Under the pieces are notes generated by a model, which worked only from the letters and a program-made list of their open reading frames with translations, was not told the origin of the DNA and ran no database searches. Positions 16,480 through 60,547 of a DNA stretch of 64,000 nucleotides are shown here, piece by piece. The stretch covers positions 186,001 to 250,000 of the forward strand of contig NC_015681.1 in assembly GCF_000217795.1 (NCBI RefSeq), given 5' to 3'. Position 1 is the first letter of the stretch, and each line of letters starts with the position of its first letter. A program made the translations under genes and the position numbers. The stretch comes from Thermodesulfatator indicus DSM 15286. GTDB lineage: Bacteria; Desulfobacterota; Thermodesulfobacteria; Thermodesulfobacteriales; Thermodesulfatatoraceae.

Positions 16480-18107
16480 TGGCTAAAAAAACAGATTTTC
16501 TAATAATCGGGTCAGGGATTGCTGGGTTTTCCCTGGCCCTTAAAGTAGCCAAACTGGGAAAAGTTACTATCGTAACCAAAAAGCGAGCCGTAGACGCTAA
16601 CACTACTCTAGCCCAGGGTGGTATTGCCTGTGTTCTGGCAGAAGATGACTCTTTCGAATTACATATTGCCGACACTTTGAAAGTAGGAGATGGCTTGGCC
16701 CAGGAAGATGTAGTCTCTTTGGTGGTGTGCCAGGCACCTGACCGGATTAAAGAACTTCTTGATTTAGGGGTCCCTTTTACCCGGGATACCAAAGACCCTT
16801 CAAAACTTCACCTAACTTTAGAAGGTGGGCATAGCAGGCGGCGCATTGTTCATGTAGAAGACCACACTGGCCGAGAAGTAGAACAAGTTTTACTCTCTTA
16901 CGCCCGCAAGCATCCTAACATTGAGATACTTGAAAACCATTTAGCGGTAGATCTCATTACCCTTTGTAAGGTTTACCGTGGCTGCCCGCGAGAGGTCTTA
17001 GGGCACGAGAGATGTCTTGGAGCCTATGTCTTAAACGCTCAAACAAACGAGATAGAAACATTTTTGGCCAAGGTTACAGTGCTGGCCACTGGAGGGGCAG
17101 GAAAGGTTTACCTTTATACCAGCAATGCCGACGTGGCCTCAGGAGACGGTATAGCACTGGCCTATAGAGCCGGTTGCCGGGTGGCTAACCTTGAATTTGT
17201 GCAATTTCATCCTACCTGTCTTTACCATCCTAAAGCCAAAAATTTTCTCATTTCAGAAGCGCTGCGCGGAGAGGGAGCCATTCTTCTAGATCCTTTCGGT
17301 AAACCTTTTATGCATAAATATGATCCAGAAAAAAAGGAACTCGCTCCCCGGGATATCGTCGCCCGAGCCATTGATTTTGAACTTAAAAAAACCGGAAAAG
17401 AATGTGTTTACTTAGATATCTCTCACAAACCGAAAGATTTCATAATCAAACGTTTCCCATATATTTACGAGACCTGTTTGAAATTAGGCATTGACATTAC
17501 CAGAGAACCCATTCCCGTAGTTCCGGCGGCCCATTATTTTTGTGGCGGTATCGTAACCGACCGCTTTGGCCTTACAGACATAAAGGGCCTTTACGCCCTG
17601 GGAGAGTGCACTTGCACGGGTTTTCACGGAGCTAACCGCCTGGCGTCTAACTCACTTTTAGAAGGCCTTGCCTTTGCCCATCAGGCGGCGGTTCACCTAA
17701 AAAAAGAGTGGCCTCTTTACCAAAAGTTTGAACCTCCAGCCGTGCCGGACTGGGATCCTGGAGGCGCGGTGGATATGGAAGAAAAGGTTCTTATTTCCCA
17801 CAATTGGGACGCCATAAGACGCCTTATGTGGAACTACGTAGGGATAGTGCGTACTGAACAGCGACTTCGGCTGGCCCAAAAAAGGCTCAACTCCATTCTT
17901 GAAGAAATAGAAGCCCACTACTGGGACTATATTCTAACTTCAGACTTTATTGAATTAAGAAATCTGGCCCACGTGGCCAAGCTAGTTATTGAGTGTGCTA
18001 TAAGACGCAAAGAAAGCCGGGGCACTCACTTTATGGTAGAGTATCCCCAAAAGAACGACGCTCTTTTTCGCAAAGATACTATCCTCTGGCGGGCCCGAGA
18101 ATCTTAA
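16479..18107 (+). CDS. nadB: L-aspartate oxidase NadB
   Basis: NadB oxidises L-aspartate to iminoaspartate, the first step of de novo NAD synthesis; in anaerobes it uses fumarate as electron acceptor. The 542-residue protein has the FAD-binding motif IIGSGIAGFSLALKVAKLG at the N-terminus, TTLAQGGIACVL, EGGHSRRRIVHVEDHTGRE, EALRGEGAILL and GECTCTGFHGANRLASNSLL. These separate NadB from succinate dehydrogenase/fumarate reductase flavoproteins. nadA and nadC are not nearby. It is the last gene of the slyD-apgM-nadB unit. Confidence 0.95.
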   Translation: MAKKTDFLIIGSGIAGFSLALKVAKLGKVTIVTKKRAVDANTTLAQGGIACVLAEDDSFELHIADTLKVGDGLAQEDVVSLVVCQAPDRIKELLDLGVPFTRDTKDPSKLHLTLEGGHSRRRIVHVEDHTGREVEQVLLSYARKHPNIEILENHLAVDLITLCKVYRGCPREVLGHERCLGAYVLNAQTNEIETFLAKVTVLATGGAGKVYLYTSNADVASGDGIALAYRAGCRVANLEFVQFHPTCLYHPKAKNFLISEALRGEGAILLDPFGKPFMHKYDPEKKELAPRDIVARAIDFELKKTGKECVYLDISHKPKDFIIKRFPYIYETCLKLGIDITREPIPVVPAAHYFCGGIVTDRFGLTDIKGLYALGECTCTGFHGANRLASNSLLEGLAFAHQAAVHLKKEWPLYQKFEPPAVPDWDPGGAVDMEEKVLISHNWDAIRRLMWNYVGIVRTEQRLRLAQKRLNSILEEIEAHYWDYILTSDFIELRNLAHVAKLVIECAIRRKESRGTHFMVEYPQKNDALFRKDTILWRARES

Positions 18108-52339: not shown

Positions 52340-55300
52340 GTTCACAGCCTAACTAAAAGGAATGGAAACCTAACTCTACTTTCTTTTTCCCCTGCTGTTT
52401 TGTAGGTTCACAGCCTAACTAAAAGGAATGGAAACTTATTTTGTAACTTTTCTTGTATCTCATCCCAACCAGTTCACAGCCTAACTAAAAGGAATGGAAA
52501 CAAAATCCTTGATAAATTCCTGCTGCTATTCTTCTTAGGTTCACAGCCTAACTAAAAGGAATGGAAACAACAATTAAAAAATTCTCCTGCTCTTTCCCCT
52601 CCAGCGTTCACAGCCTAACTAAAAGGAATGGAAACGAAGGTTATAGAGCTTTGATTTCTTTAGTTAAACAGGGTTCACAGCCTAACTAAAAGGAATGGAA
52701 ACTTAGATTTAAAAATTAAGGTAGCAGTTAAAGAAGGAGTTCACAGCCTAACTAAAAGGAATGGAAACTGGGCAACAAATATTTATAAAATCACGCCCCA
52801 CATTGTTCACAGCCTAACTAAAAGGAATGGAAACATAGAATACAGCTAAGAAGAATAGCAGCAGGAATTTGTTCACAGCCTAACTAAAAGGAATGGAAAC
52901 GGGCTTTAAGAGAAGACTTTGGAAAAGTGGTTGGAGGTTCACAGCCTAACTAAAAGGAATGGAAACAAGTCTCAAATATTTAATGCAGTTAGCACAGTAT
53001 TTGGTTCACAGCCTAACTAAAAGGAATGGAAACTTCCCTTAGAGGGACAGGTTATGTGGTAATAAAATCCTGTTCACAGCCTAACTAAAAGGAATGGAAA
53101 CCTAACAAAATCTCTCCACTTTCTCATAAAAACCTCCGTTCACAGCCTAACTAAAAGGAATGGAAACATAGACATAAGTGCGTGGGGGACATACCCATTT
53201 GCGTGTTCACAGCCTAACTAAAAGGAATGGAAACGACTGATGGAACATACGGCCTCCATTCAAGCTCTCCCGTTCACAGCCTAACTAAAAGGAATGGAAA
53301 CGGGGGTGTGGGTGAGGAAAATAGAAAAAAGAGTACTGGTTCACAGCCTAACTAAAAGGAATGGAAACCAAGAACTTATACTTTTTAGGAAAATGTTTCT
53401 TAGCAGTTCACAGCCTAACTAAAAGGAATGGAAACTCATTATTGAGGCTGACACAGCACGATGCGAAAGCCCGTTCACAGCCTAACTAAAAGGAATGGAA
53501 ACTCTTCCTGCTTTTTGGTTTTTGGATATTTTTGGTTACCGTTCACAGCCTAACTAAAAGGAATGGAAACCGATTTCCGCGGCTCTAATACTCCATGGCG
53601 GAGCATGTTCACAGCCTAACTAAAAGGAATGGAAACGGTAGCGTTCAAGGGCTGTTGCGTCAAAGCCTTGCTCGTTCACAGCCTAACTAAAAGGAATGGA
53701 AACGTGCGTAACGCCTGAACATTTACCCTGGCATCTGCACAGTTCACAGCCTAACTAAAAGGAATGGAAACTTGATATTATTAGTGAAAATCCTTACTCA
53801 TTGACTCGTTCACAGCCTAACTAAAAGGAATGGAAACATATCCAATAGTTATTATTCCTATGACTTCATCTCACGTTCACAGCCTAACTAAAAGGAATGG
53901 AAACATGGCAAAATAACGGGCCGCCCTTTCTGCAGCCAGAGTGTTCACAGCCTAACTAAAAGGAATGGAAACTTACCTAACCTCTATAAATTTTAGCTTG
54001 AACGAAGTAGTTCACAGCCTAACTAAAAGGAATGGAAACATTAAACTAATTTGGTTAGCAAGAAAACACACCACAGTTCACAGCCTAACTAAAAGGAATG
54101 GAAACTAATCATATTCAGATAAGGCCTCTAACAAAGGAACTAGTTCACAGCCTAACTAAAAGGAATGGAAACTTTGGTGGCCGTCATACCCTCCGACTAT
54201 TTTCACTTTGTTCACAGCCTAACTAAAAGGAATGGAAACTAAAATGTTTTATCCCCTGCCTAATAGTTCCCTTGAGTTCACAGCCTAACTAAAAGGAATG
54301 GAAACAAGCTAAACTTCGGGACTTGTGAAATAGTCATATCGAGTTCACAGCCTAACTAAAAGGAATGGAAACTTTCTTCTATGCTCCGCATTATTTATCC
54401 TCCAATAAAGTTCACAGCCTAACTAAAAGGAATGGAAACTCGCCACCAGCCCGGATAATACGGGCATTCTTCTAGCGTTCACAGCCTAACTAAAAGGAAT
54501 GGAAACTCGCCACCAGCCCGGATAATACGGGCATTCTTCTAGCGTTCACAGCCTAACTAAAAGGAATGGAAACTTTTGCCATCGGTCAGGTGCCGGTGGC
54601 CGTCCAGGTAGTTCACAGCCTAACTAAAAGGAATGGAAACTAAACTCTGCTTTGGTTAACCCTAGGCCCGCCTTTACGTTCACAGCCTAACTAAAAGGAA
54701 TGGAAACTTACCAGACTTTTGGTTAATATTATTAAGCTCGTTCTGTTCACAGCCTAACTAAAAGGAATGGAAACAAAGATTGAGCATCAACAGCGTTAAT
54801 AATAATGTTGTGTTCACAGCCTAACTAAAAGGAATGGAAACCTTTATTGGTAAAATTATCAATTGTAGAGGAATTGAGTTCACAGCCTAACTAAAAGGAA
54901 TGGAAACGAAGGACAATGCAAATAATACTAACCGAGAAACCAAGGTTCACAGCCTAACTAAAAGGAATGGAAACCTAAACCTTCTGCACTTCTTTGAATT
55001 AAAGCCACTGGGTTCACAGCCTAACTAAAAGGAATGGAAACGATATGGTAATGGAGAAATGAAAACAACAGCGTATTTGTTCACAGCCTAACTAAAAGGA
55101 ATGGAAACAGCATTTTGGTGAGGAATTTGAGCGTTATATGGGAGTGTTCACAGCCTAACTAAAAGGAATGGAAACTTTTATTATTCATTTCCCCCTTTTT
55201 CTATGTATTCTTGTTCACAGCCTAACTAAAAGGAATGGAAACTTTTATTATTCATTTCCCCCTTTTTCTATGTATTCTTGTTCACAGCCTAACTAAAAGG

Positions 55301-56233
55301 AATGGAAACTAATCCCACCGGAGTGGTTCCGGTTCAGCAATGCATAGTTCACAGCCTAACTAAAAGGAATGGAAACGCGAAACGTCTGGCTTCAAGAGGG
55401 GACAACCTGATTCGGTTCACAGCCTAACTAAAAGGAATGGAAACTCGGCACCCACGAGGCAGGAATCTGGCGAAGAGTCGGGTTCACAGCCTAACTAAAA
55501 GGAATGGAAACAGCATTTTGGTGAGGAATTTGAGCGTTATATGGGAGTGTTCACAGCCTAACTAAAAGGAATGGAAACAAAAGCTTGAGGTAAAACTGGA
55601 AGAAGTCTTCCCTCAGGTTCACAGCCTAACTAAAAGGAATGGAAACAGTACTAACTAACTACTTTCTTAATACTTAACTAATAGTTCACAGCCTAACTAA
55701 AAGGAATGGAAACACCTCATTTCCGAGAGCCTTAGCAATGGCACTTTTACCGTTCACAGCCTAACTAAAAGGAATGGAAACACCTCATTTCCGAGAGCCT
55801 TAGCAATGGCACTTTTACCGTTCACAGCCTAACTAAAAGGAATGGAAACGGTAAAATTTCTTTGTTACGCATATTCACAATCCTCGTTCACAGCCTAACT
55901 AAAAGGAATGGAAACCTGGATCGGCCTATCGATGTAATTTTTGGTGCCTTAGTGTTCACAGCCTAACTAAAAGGAATGGAAACTCGTCCATGAGGGCTGG
56001 CACGACCGAAACGCTTCGAGGTTCACAGCCTAACTAAAAGGAATGGAAACTTTGAACGAGCTCATGCGGAGGTTCAAAGGGAAGGAGTTCACAGCCTAAC
56101 TAAAAGGAATGGAAACTTTGAACGAGCTCATGCGGAGGTTCAAAGGGAAGGAGTTCACAGCCTAACTAAAAGGAATGGAAACTGGCCTTACGATAACGGA
56201 AGGCGGCTCTGAGAGAGGGTTCACAGCCTAACT
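52340..56233 (+). CRISPR. CRISPR array, 58 complete 30-nt repeats and 58 spacers, ending in a split repeat
   Basis: The repeat is 30 nt, starts GTTCACAGCC and ends GGAATGGAAAC, the type I-B/III thermophile ending. I counted 58 complete repeats from 52340, then half a repeat at 56219-56233, with spacers of about 36-38 nt. Repeats are almost invariant. Four spacers are tandemly duplicated (54440/54508, 55176/55243, 55714/55782, 56051/56118 as starts), and one recurs apart (55109 and 55512). Spacers at 52502 and 52835 overlap on opposite strands. The reading direction from cas2 and the leader is plus. Confidence 0.97.
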
Positions 56234-56244
56234 ACTAAGGGGAG

Positions 56245-56409
56245 CACTAAATAGGCGACAATTGAGTCATTTTGCGAGCGAAGCGAAGCAATCCCTGAGA
56301 CTGCTTCGACCTCTAACGAGGCCTCGCAGTGACAGCGAAGGTTACTTTGCTTTAGCGATTATGTAAGCGGCGATACTTTGTCGTGTAAAACACACTCGGA
56401 TTAATATTA
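56245..56409. repeat. Short composite REP-like element (165 bp), copy A
   Basis: Starts CACTAAATAGGCGACAATTG and ends GATTAATATTA. It is 165 bp long and differs from the copy at 60383-60547 at only about five positions without gaps. Inside, TGCGAG...CGAAGCA can pair with TGCTTCG...CTCGCA. GGGAGCACT occurs at its left and right borders (56240 and 56412), perhaps marking its insertion. Confidence 0.8.
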
Positions 56410-56647
56410 CTGGGAGCACTTTTTAGGTGACACTCAGGCCTCATGATTACAAGCTTTTAGAAGCTGAAAATGTCATATATTTGATGACCCCATCCTGTGA
56501 AAACATCGACCAATAACCACCAACTCTAGTTCAAGAGAGATTCCTGTGCGTGGTCAAAGCCTACAATTTGTTGTGCCTGCTGGTGGTCGGTCAGGTTAAT
56601 ATCGCGCTCTTTGGCTTCAGTGGGGGCTACGACCTTACCTCGCTGTT

Positions 56648-57901
56648 TTATGCCGCTACCACTTTATACCCAAGTCTTTCTGCTTCTTCTTTTATTTTTG
56701 TCAATAATCTCTCCCTATTTATCTGCTTCAGATGATTTGCCCCTAATTCCCTGTATTCCTGACCCTCTTTGATGATAAAATACACCGCTTTCAATATCTT
56801 ATGCGCTATGGCCCCTATGGCTTTCTTAGGCCCTCGACGAGCACGAAGTTGCCTATATTTTGCCGCATAATATGTCCCTTTCTTCCTCGTGGCCGCCCAA
56901 GACACCTCTATCAAAACGCTTCTTAAAGGATGTTTCTTTACCGGGCTCTTGCCGCTAATCCTCTTTCCTCCACTTTCGTTATTCCCTGGACAAACTCCTG
57001 CCCAACTGGCTAGCGCCCTCTCATTTGGAAAACTTCTCAGATCCGGCCCTACTTCTGCCAAAATAGCTCGCGCTGAAACTTCACTTACTCCTGGTATCCC
57101 TTTTAATCTCTCTATTAAATCTTCATGGTGTCTCATTACTTCCTTGATCCTTATATCCATAATCCCTATCTCTTTTTCCAGAGTCTCTATTATGCTTAAG
57201 AGCGAATGCAAAAGAAAACGATGATGCTCTTCGAAAAAGCCACAAATAGAGCGATAGAGCTCTTCTACTTTCTTCTTAAGTTTCCCTTTAGCACAAGCCC
57301 TAACTTCTTCAAGGCTAGGCTTGGGGGTCTCTAAAAGTAATCTCATGATTTGACGACCTGTTTCCCCAAACAAATCTGAAACTACATTGTCTAGCTTAAT
57401 ATTTGCTGATTCAAAAAGCTTTTGAACTCTTTTCTTATAATCAGCAAGCGTTTTGACATGTTTCTGTCTAAGTCGTACTAGCTCTCTCCAGAAACGAACT
57501 TGTTTTGGGGGAATATAACTTGCCCGTAGCAGACCTACACGAAGTAATTCTGCTAACCAGCGGCTGTCTGAGACATCCGTCTTTCGTCCAGGGACATTTT
57601 TGATATGCCTGGCATTGACTAAGATCACTTCCACATAGCCTTCTAAAATATTGTGTATAGGCTGCCAGTAAACACCTGTGCTTTCCATGGCTACAATGGG
57701 ACAATCTTTTTCGATCAGCCATTCTCTCAGGGCTATAAGATCGTCGGTAAAAGTTTCAAATTCTCGAACTTCGACTTCTATAGAACCATCAGGAAGAGTC
57801 TTTAGGATACATGCTGAGACGAAACGCTTATGAACGTCAAGGCCACAACAAATGGGATGAATAATTCTTAAAACCTGGTTATTTTCTTTTTCAGGAGCCA
57901 T
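56648..57901 (-). CDS. IS110-family transposase (DEDD type)
   Basis: ATG 57901 has AAGGAGGT upstream and gives 417 residues. The RuvC-like domain has the four acids: CCGLDVHKRFVSACIL, VAMESTGVYW and RKTDVSDSRWLAEL. The C-terminal Transposase_20 region, with PGVSEVSARAILAEVGPDLR and the catalytic Ser region GNNESGGKRISG, is intact, so the element may be active. The longer non-coding side is downstream of the gene, as in the IS1111 subgroup, where the bridge RNA lies at that end; 56412-56647 is the place to look. Confidence 0.9.
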   Translation of the reverse strand: MAPEKENNQVLRIIHPICCGLDVHKRFVSACILKTLPDGSIEVEVREFETFTDDLIALREWLIEKDCPIVAMESTGVYWQPIHNILEGYVEVILVNARHIKNVPGRKTDVSDSRWLAELLRVGLLRASYIPPKQVRFWRELVRLRQKHVKTLADYKKRVQKLFESANIKLDNVVSDLFGETGRQIMRLLLETPKPSLEEVRACAKGKLKKKVEELYRSICGFFEEHHRFLLHSLLSIIETLEKEIGIMDIRIKEVMRHHEDLIERLKGIPGVSEVSARAILAEVGPDLRSFPNERALASWAGVCPGNNESGGKRISGKSPVKKHPLRSVLIEVSWAATRKKGTYYAAKYRQLRARRGPKKAIGAIAHKILKAVYFIIKEGQEYRELGANHLKQINRERLLTKIKEEAERLGYKVVAA

Positions 57902-58012
57902 GGGTATATACCTCCTTTTTAAAGACTTTTTGAAGCAACAAAATATCCATGGCTCCTCTCTTTTCAATGTTTTCATGCCTTCGTTGTGCCCCTTTGGGGC
58001 ATGGAGGTTAAT

Positions 58013-58027
58013 AAAAGGAATGGAAAC
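58013..58027 (+). CRISPR. Right half of the repeat split by the IS110 element
   Basis: AAAAGGAATGGAAAC is identical to the last 15 bases of the array repeat. Preceding bases GGTTAAT are close to the repeat's CCTAACT but not identical, so the IS boundary lies within a few bases of 58012. Confidence 0.8.
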
Positions 58028-58094
58028 TGCGTTCTGAAATTTCGCGTAGCGCCTCCTTAACACCCTTGTCATCCACTTTCATCTTGATGTCCAT
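58028..58094 (-). pseudogene. Start of a phage-like gene cut off by the repeat remnant
   Basis: On the minus strand, ATG 58094 (AGGATAAGGGG upstream) begins MDIKMKVDDKGVKEALREIS and runs straight into the half repeat at 58027, so only about 22 codons remain. The helix-rich start recalls HK97 gp10-type phage morphogenesis proteins; this is a weak similarity from memory. The fragment occupies the place where a spacer would be expected but is much longer than one. Confidence 0.4.
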
Positions 58095-58118
58095 CGTAAA
58101 ACCCCTTATCCTGAATTT

Positions 58119-58213
58119 GGGCCTATGGCAAAATCCCCCGGCGATATGCTGAGCGTGTCCCGGCACGCAAAAAGTTCCGTCGGCGGGGCGAGGGGGGTCC
58201 GCCGCATAGGCCC
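58119..58213 (-). ncRNA. Structured element A (about 95 nt, paired ends)
   Basis: The ends GGGCCTATG and CATAGGCCC are perfectly complementary. On the minus strand the inside has GGACCCCC, a GCGTG...CACGC hairpin and GCCGGGGGATTT, in the same order as in element B. Two copies with covarying ends suggest a conserved RNA (or single-strand DNA) fold. Rfam identity is unknown to me. Confidence 0.5.
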
Positions 58214-58266
58214 CAGGGGAGCCCGGGGACTCCCCGCTTACTTTCCTAAAGTTCATCCTTGAGCAC

Positions 58267-58296
58267 GTTCACATCCTAACTAAAAGAAATGGAAAC
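58267..58296 (+). CRISPR. Isolated relic repeat beyond the IS110 element
   Basis: All 30 bases are present, with two differences from the consensus (CACAT for CACAG and AAAGAAATGG for AAAGGAATGG). It lies 239 bases after the split repeat, far more than a normal spacer. It shows the array once extended at least this far. Confidence 0.9.
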
Positions 58297-58300
58297 AAGT

Positions 58301-58403
58301 TAGGCCCTGGCAACGCGGTAAATCCCCCGGCCGTGCTTCCACGCCTCGTTGAGGCGTGTCAGAGAGCTCAGGAGGAGGCATGGGGGTCCCTCCCCAGGGC
58401 CTA
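58301..58403 (-). ncRNA. Structured element B (about 103 nt, paired ends)
   Basis: TAGGCCCTGG and CCAGGGCCTA close the element. On the minus strand GGGACCCCC, ACACGCCT...AGGCGTG and GGCCGGGGGATTT follow, matching element A in order. It starts four bases after the relic repeat. The similarity is in short blocks with different loops, as for a folded RNA. Confidence 0.5.
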
Positions 58404-58432: not shown

Positions 58433-58730
58433 CTTTAAATAGTGACAAAAACACAGTATCTTGCGAGCGAAGCAATCCCTGTCGCGAGGCGACTTATTCG
58501 CTGTGGCGATCTCTATTTCTGAGACTGCTTCGTCGTGCTCGTGCGCTCCTCGCAGTGACAAATGGGCTGTTATTGCGAGCCAAAGTGGAGAAGCAATCTC
58601 CATGCTCTTCGGTAAAGATTACCTCGTCGGCACTTCGTGCCTCCTCGTAATGCCCCAGTCAAGTCAATTAGCTACAGCTACTCCGTAACCTTGTGGACAC
58701 TGGGTCGTGTAAAAACGCTCGGATTAATAA
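58433..58730. repeat. Composite REP-like element, long form
   Basis: It opens CTTTAAATAGTGAC and closes GTCGTGTAAAAACGCTCGGA, then TTAATA. Inside are GCTTCGTCGTGCTCGTGCGC, CTCGCAGTGACAAATGGG and GGCACTTCGTGCCTCC modules, as in the copy at 44045. No gene is supported between 58028 and 58892. Confidence 0.75.
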
Positions 58731-60382: not shown

Positions 60383-60547
60383 CACTAAATAGGCGACAAT
60401 TGAGTCGTTTTGCGAGCGAAGCGAAGCAATCCCTGAGACTGCTTCGACTTCTAACGAGGCCTCGCAGTGACAGCGAAGGTTACTTTGCTTTAGCGATTAT
60501 GTCAGCGGCGATACTTTGTCGTGTAAAACACGCTCGTATTAATATTA
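60383..60547. repeat. Short composite REP-like element (165 bp), copy B
   Basis: About 97 percent identical to 56245-56409 over the same length, without gaps. The near identity implies recent spread or gene conversion. It lies just after the tauE-like gene. The following 60548-60680 shows only A+T-rich DNA with a TTTTGCAAAA motif at 60660. Confidence 0.85.

Follow-up and report, generated by a model that had tools for sequence, protein, structure and literature searches.

Two structured elements among CRISPR repeats

The end of a CRISPR array in Thermodesulfatator indicus DSM 15286 holds two similar, apparently structured elements, and the question is what they are and which gene they belong with. 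The window, that is, the whole 64,000-nucleotide stretch of DNA analyzed here, contains the array, its outlying repeat copies, and the pieces between them (Table 1). The original prediction, made from the sequence, had placed two homologous elements on the minus strand, the first (e1) followed by a ribosome site and a phage-like gene start that is stopped by a CRISPR half repeat. It had read them as a phage or mobile-element RNA with a conserved fold, with the C4-type antisense RNA as a family to compare.

Table 1. Positions of the CRISPR repeats, phage-derived pieces, and RNA elements in the window
Feature	Position	Strand	Basis
CRISPR array, 58 full repeats, spacers of 36-38 nt	52340-56182	+	
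Right half of array repeat interrupted by insertion	58012-58027	+	
gpG-type (virion morphogenesis) gene start, 22 codons, cut by repeat	58028-58094	-	Sequence; gene order as in G037
e1, pseudoknot RNA of e1 type	58119-58213	-	Alignment and script reading of helices
e1 helix P1	58205-58213 with 58119-58127	-	
e1 helix P2	58193-58197 with 58135-58139	-	
e1 helix P3	58199-58204 with 58181-58186	-	
P0 hairpin (GGGGAG-loop-CTCCCC), immediately 5' of e1	58216-58235	-	Alignment A2 and R1 structure
Putative MuF (gpF) reading-frame end, VLKDEL-stop, abutting CRISPR repeat	58246-58266	-	Sequence; L020 comparison
CRISPR repeat copy, 28/30 (2 mismatches), between e2 and gpF end, abutting array region	58267-58296	+	
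e2, pseudoknot RNA of e2 type	58301-58403	-	Close relative in G248 (L139:1382-1485)
e2 helix P1	58394-58403 with 58301-58310	-	
e2 helix P2	58382-58386 with 58324-58328	-	
e2 helix P3	about 58389-58393 with 58374-58378	-	

Both elements were found where they had been placed, with the shared blocks in the same order. The pattern GGACCCCC-N30..60-GCCGGGGGATTT matched twice in the window, both times on the minus strand, and gave no match across 100 shuffled windows. The two blocks span exactly 70 nt in each copy (58131-58200 and 58320-58389). As had been noticed, the ends are perfectly complementary within a copy and differ between the copies: GGGCCTATG/CATAGGCCC in e1 and TAGGCCCTGG/CCAGGGCCTA in e2. 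Both elements are very G+C-rich. In single-sequence folding of the minus strand, e1 was weak (z -0.95) and e2 stronger (z -3.96); the structural evidence for both is comparative. No second full copy of the e1 block was present in the host genome.

Since the spacers of the array measure 36 to 38 nt, the 239-nt interval 58028-58266 is abnormal. It reads, in order, VLKDEL-stop, P0 hairpin, e1, ribosome site, and gpG start, the same layout as in genome G037 of the host's phylum. A gene for a MuF protein with a PBECR domain at locus L020 terminates GRVLKDEL-stop, and the short stretch at 58246-58266 is probably a homologue of such a gene end. The P0 hairpin recurs in L012 and L117, where the letters differ yet still pair (alignment A2). 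Downstream of e1, a ribosome-site-like stretch is followed by MDIKMKVDDKGVKEALREISER, and the reading frame ends at 58028 against the half repeat, as the original prediction had it. The short peptide of this gene start gave no database match. In G037, the element lies between a 389-amino-acid MuF gene, which matches Phage_Mu_F and PBECR3 in Pfam, and a gpG-type gene, which matches Phage_tail_S (PF05069); the phage origin proposed for the truncated gene start holds on this comparison.

A family of phage pseudoknot RNAs

The family comprises 17 members in 15 loci and ranges from Mu-like prophages of thermophiles to the Haemophilus phage SuMu, a Mannheimia phage, and Dulem virus 31. Scanning with the two-block pattern found L007 among viral contigs, G037 in the host's phylum, and L117 among genome contigs. 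The viral scans returned 4 and 8 stretches (the 8 include the 4), of which only L007 was accepted, and none of 8 further viral stretches from pattern scans was accepted; L117 was the only one accepted of 26 stretches from genome contigs. L005, which has a similar look, was left out of the count. Protein searches with gpG, MuF, and PBECR added L020, L023, L125, L128, SuMu, the Dulem virus, the Mannheimia phage, L174, and L175, each with the element behind the MuF reading frame.

A model (R1), built from e1, L012, and L117, added L139 (in G248) and L140 (in G107). It recovered L125 (4e-11), L020 (1.8e-15), L139, and L140, none of which had been used in building it. Over 395 genomes of the phylum, R1 gave strong matches in four (G000, G248, G037, and G107), and 11 other genomes matched at E 0.198 or worse, which was treated as noise; PF18812 alone was found in 3 of the 395. 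When e1 and e2 were compared with phages by blastn, matches had E values of 0.3 or worse. Because R1 missed the members of e2 type, layout and position are what unite the two types. A second model was dropped because the e2-type alignment (A9) misplaced P2. Under a stricter descriptor, 31 hits came from 1.09 Mb of loci, compared with 3 per shuffled set; many of the 31 were duplicates of a place already hit, and a few were doubtful.

The RNAs are about 80 to 120 nt long. Read from 5' to 3', P1 is followed by a short strand (the 5' strand) that ends in GG or GGN, then by P2 and a short loop; P3' and a variable region come next, and after them P2', then a strand that mostly starts with ATT, and finally P1'. 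The closing helix P1 and the helix P2 occur in each member, and most of the 17 also have P3. P3 forms when the 5' strand pairs with the stretch close behind P2, and it therefore crosses P2. P2 was exactly predicted by P2' in 12 of 13 cases, with the pairs CCCCC/GGGGG, CTCCC/GGGAG, CTCGA/TCGAG, CTGGA/TCCAG, and CCTCC/GGAGG. When P1 partners were swapped between members, the observed pairing total was reached in 0 of 300 swaps. The corresponding test of P3 gave 0/3000 for the 17 members and 1/3000 for 14 subtypes; an earlier one with 10 members gave 1/5000.

The helices covary between members, and the comparison indicates a pseudoknot inside a closing helix. By the same comparison, e1 and e2 are assigned to a conserved phage RNA family. 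The conserved fold with compensatory ends was thus correctly anticipated; the hairpin core stressed at that time is one helix of the fold, and the whole is a pseudoknot enclosed by P1. Members vary in quality: P3 is weak in G405, G117 has a GCAGGG/CCCTGC P3 with a 19-nt loop in a different register, the script chose an unusual P3 in a different register for G101, and P1 of G107 is short (5 bp). In single-sequence folding, several members fold no better than shuffles, with programs that cannot form a pseudoknot.

Other identities were considered. C4 is a small antisense RNA of P1/P7 phages. An Rfam search of the region (E up to 5) and of the relatives matched no phage RNA family and returned tRNA, CRISPR-DR2, and chance-level families, so C4 is unsupported. 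Of the first reading, the conserved phage-derived fold at the array end stands, and the C4 identity does not. Behind a Mu head gene lies another structured element, the Mu-gpT downstream element; that gene differs from MuF, and the present RNAs gave no Rfam match, if the gpT motif is in Rfam 15. The ends of a DNA transposon, named at the outset as the finding that would overturn an RNA, did not emerge: end sequences differ among most of the 17 members, whereas copies of a transposon would all share their terminal inverted repeats. Antisense mimicry of tRNA-Gln, suspected by eye in SuMu, was rejected because ARAGORN finds no tRNA in the elements and the sequence fits the family layout. Comparison with attC sites and with HDV-like or twister ribozymes was by eye. 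The strong gyrase site of Mu is annotated at 17879, between G and I, whereas the element follows F. In a literature search that covered subscription papers and preprints only thinly, no published account of the family was found.

Association with MuF genes that end in a PBECR domain

The original prediction had pointed out the gene start downstream of e1. The constant partner proved to be the gene upstream, encoding a MuF minor-head protein with a PBECR-type (BECR-fold) RNase domain at its C-terminus. The element lies within 300 nt past the stop of 12 of 15 PBECR-bearing open reading frames (ORFs), as opposed to 0 of 49 MuF ORFs without PBECR (Fisher 1.4e-10), counted over the collected loci with MuF and PBECR profiles, of which A4, A6, and A8 were partly built from loci also in the count. 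Presence was scored with a relaxed descriptor (P1, P2, and flanks, with P3 optional). Leaving aside L007, L012, and L139, which had been found through the element, the proportion was 9 of 12. Twelve loci had been left out by hand before counting, namely ten that duplicated counted loci, L176 (a decayed PBECR fragment), and L177 (unrelated by its frame); among the downstream stretches, 8 duplicates and 1 that was cut were also left out, and L176 stood outside the element test. A later search made with proteins alone yielded two new MuF-PBECR loci, L174 and L175, and the element was in both. The RNA is thus associated with MuF-PBECR genes.

By the relaxed descriptor, three PBECR-bearing loci lack the element: L154, L171, and L135, the last a 98-amino-acid fragment. 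In L154, a Helicobacter pullorum prophage, what may be a diverged pseudoknot was seen by eye behind the MuF-PBECR gene (2255-2340), with GTGGG/CCCAC crossing TTGCC/GGCAA; it was not counted. The element also follows MuF in L020 and L023, whose gpG lies on the opposite strand, and in L007, where the next gene is gpI. In phage Mu, F and G overlap. The Mu PBECR is termed inactive in the treatment of the domain by Iyer 2017 (PMC5512222).

The MuF domain PF04233 is present in G037, L007, L125, L020, SuMu, Dulem, and L154. PBECR3 (PF18812) was above the cutoff in G037 and SuMu, and other loci were recognized by profiles built in this analysis. An AlphaFold model of the L020 domain, made from three sequences, had a mean pLDDT of 73.6. 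Its best VIA match was BrnT (Z 6.3, rmsd 3.4, 74 aligned), and the HigB and RelE toxins scored Z 4 to 5; this likeness of the model to RNase toxins is suggestive only, as a Z under 8 may reflect a common arrangement. A Foldseek comparison of the model with the PDB gave nothing at E 0.001. In the 150-nt gap downstream of MuF in the Mannheimia phage, no ORF is annotated; in SuMu, a 66-amino-acid ORF lies downstream of MuF and could be an immunity gene.

CRISPR repeats beside the phage pieces

The pieces that carry this RNA adjoin CRISPR repeats in two different hosts, which is a puzzle. All that is left of the module in the window is a pair of phage-derived fragments fused to CRISPR repeats. In G107, e1 and a five-codon gpG-like start are fused to a solitary repeat that is 1 base off the 60 array repeats, which sit on another contig. 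Just left of e1 in G107 are 13 nt of repeat (0 of 2,000 shuffles), and the full repeat is to its right. Thus, phage pieces with this RNA adjoin host-type repeats in two genomes. The proposed capture at the decayed array end is supported. Relative to e1, the repeat points one way in the window and the other way in G107. In G248, e2 and e1 form a tandem ordered and oriented as in the window, with no repeat separating them.

Several features of these sites were observed in passing. The G107 site (L156, G107:C29, 7881-8381) is an island of roughly 500 bp with an N-terminal piece of a head maturation protease (phrog_34096), e1, and the solitary repeat, upstream of an apparent mfd. The G248 site (L139, 1040-1700) is a decayed prophage beside a tRNA-Leu, in which a MuF-PBECR remnant lies on one side of the two tandem elements and a broken gpG-like start on the other. 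An insert of about 1.78 kb in the window (56219-58027) separates the two parts of an array repeat, at 56235 and 58012; it has a transposase-like ORF of 474 amino acids (56648-58072, minus strand), IS110-like by eye, and, close to its left end, a MITE-like stretch. Near-identical stretches (TAGGCGACAATTGAGTC..TTGCGAGCGAAGCGAAGCAATCCCTGAG..) at 56245-56370 and 60385-60500, with a diverged one near 58460, form a small genome repeat family. The same spacer occurs twice in adjacent array units at 54410-54543, 55146-55279, 55684-55819, and 56021-56152, a sign of array slippage or recombination.

The window intervals may be over-long spacers taken from MuF-PBECR phages, the 239-nt one holding the gpF end, e1, and the gpG start and a second one holding e2, as the oldest units of the array. 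We regard this as possible but somewhat doubtful. Repeats flank the 239-nt piece on either side, with phage DNA right up to each, and the G107 site likewise has a repeat piece on one side of e1 and a full repeat on the other. Yet every other spacer in the window is 36 to 38 nt long, the site and the array of G107 are on different contigs, and the e2-e1 arrangement shared with the repeat-free G248 resembles a single phage segment with an internal repeat. It is also possible that a phage-borne solitary repeat recombined with the array; both routes are possible, and neither accounts for everything. The idea that a reverse-transcriptase Cas1 had captured the RNA was rejected: the Cas1-like ORF of the window, so named from its sequence, has 330 amino acids and no fusion. 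Solitary repeat units and RNA anti-CRISPRs, as presented in Nature 2023 (PMC10651486), likewise place host-like repeats in phage-derived DNA, as in the window and G107. Unlike those, e1 and e2 are not themselves repeat mimics, and the two hosts carry the repeat in opposite orientations with respect to e1.

A possible role as partner of the PBECR RNase

The elements represent a real phage RNA family, whose function we infer from its company. Type III antitoxins are tandem repeats upstream of the toxin gene. As far as descriptions of type III toxin-antitoxin systems (ToxIN, CptIN, and TenpIN) and of AbiF with its RNA go, these systems have a predicted endoribonuclease beside a pseudoknotted RNA, sometimes in more than one copy, as here; in the present family, P2 and P3 cross and covary as in an H-type pseudoknot, with the helices taken from comparison. 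The type III systems differ in that the RNA here lies downstream of MuF, singly or, in G248, doubly rather than as a long tandem array upstream, and the candidate toxin, a PBECR domain, is part of a phage head protein. In Jamet 2017 (PMC5576092), MuF polymorphic toxins consist of a MuF domain with a C-terminal toxin domain, and their partner is encoded directly downstream. The proteins here share that plan, and the candidate for the downstream partner is an RNA, not a small ORF. What Iyer 2017 (PMC5512222) says of PBECR includes its fusion to MuF and suggested targets such as CRISPR RNAs; unlike the loci here, that description of the domain includes no RNA element.

The RNA is quite possibly a partner of the PBECR RNase, probably an immunity factor or antitoxin, acting much as type III antitoxins do without belonging to their family. 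In having a pseudoknot and lying next to a predicted endoribonuclease, the RNA recalls those antitoxins, so an RNA that blocks PBECR would be the most economical mechanism. The MuF head protein may enter the cell with the injected DNA, where its PBECR domain would cleave RNA. The RNA would be transcribed, bind the PBECR domain, and restrain the RNase in the producing cell and in the lysogen; it would thereby occupy the slot that a small immunity gene uses in other MuF toxins.

The main rival reading makes the RNA the PBECR domain's own target: MuF would bind or cut its own late mRNA, separating messages or autoregulating the MuF dose, with no immunity involved. The tight placement of the element, after the MuF stop and before the next head gene, suits this reading, as does RegB, a phage enzyme of the BECR fold that cuts phage mRNA, cited by Iyer 2017 (PMC5512222). 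We nevertheless consider it unlikely, as it leaves the e2-e1 tandems unaccounted for when taken alone and offers no reason why the sequences of P1 and P3 should be free and only the fold kept. Less probable still is a cis element that serves the late operon in general, as a terminator, a pause site, or a translation control, and is unrelated to the RNase. An intergenic position between head genes and the lack of any encoded protein would agree with it, but the sequence has no T run typical of intrinsic terminators, none of the 49 MuF ORFs without PBECR carries the element, and the element follows MuF even before gpI or an opposite-strand gene.

Returning to the RNA as a partner that restrains PBECR, we hold it possible, with less assurance, that the pseudoknot RNA holds a virion-borne MuF-PBECR RNase in check and so lets the producing cell and its lysogens survive, which would be a case of RNA immunity in a polymorphic toxin. 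A bolder extension is that the PBECR enzyme would act on CRISPR RNAs, and e1 beside host CRISPR repeats in two hosts would be a trace of that conflict. If the RNA does act in this way, the immunity of polymorphic toxins can be an RNA rather than a protein. A conserved pseudoknot RNA tied to one RNase domain is a candidate for what keeps MuF toxins harmless to their own lysogens.
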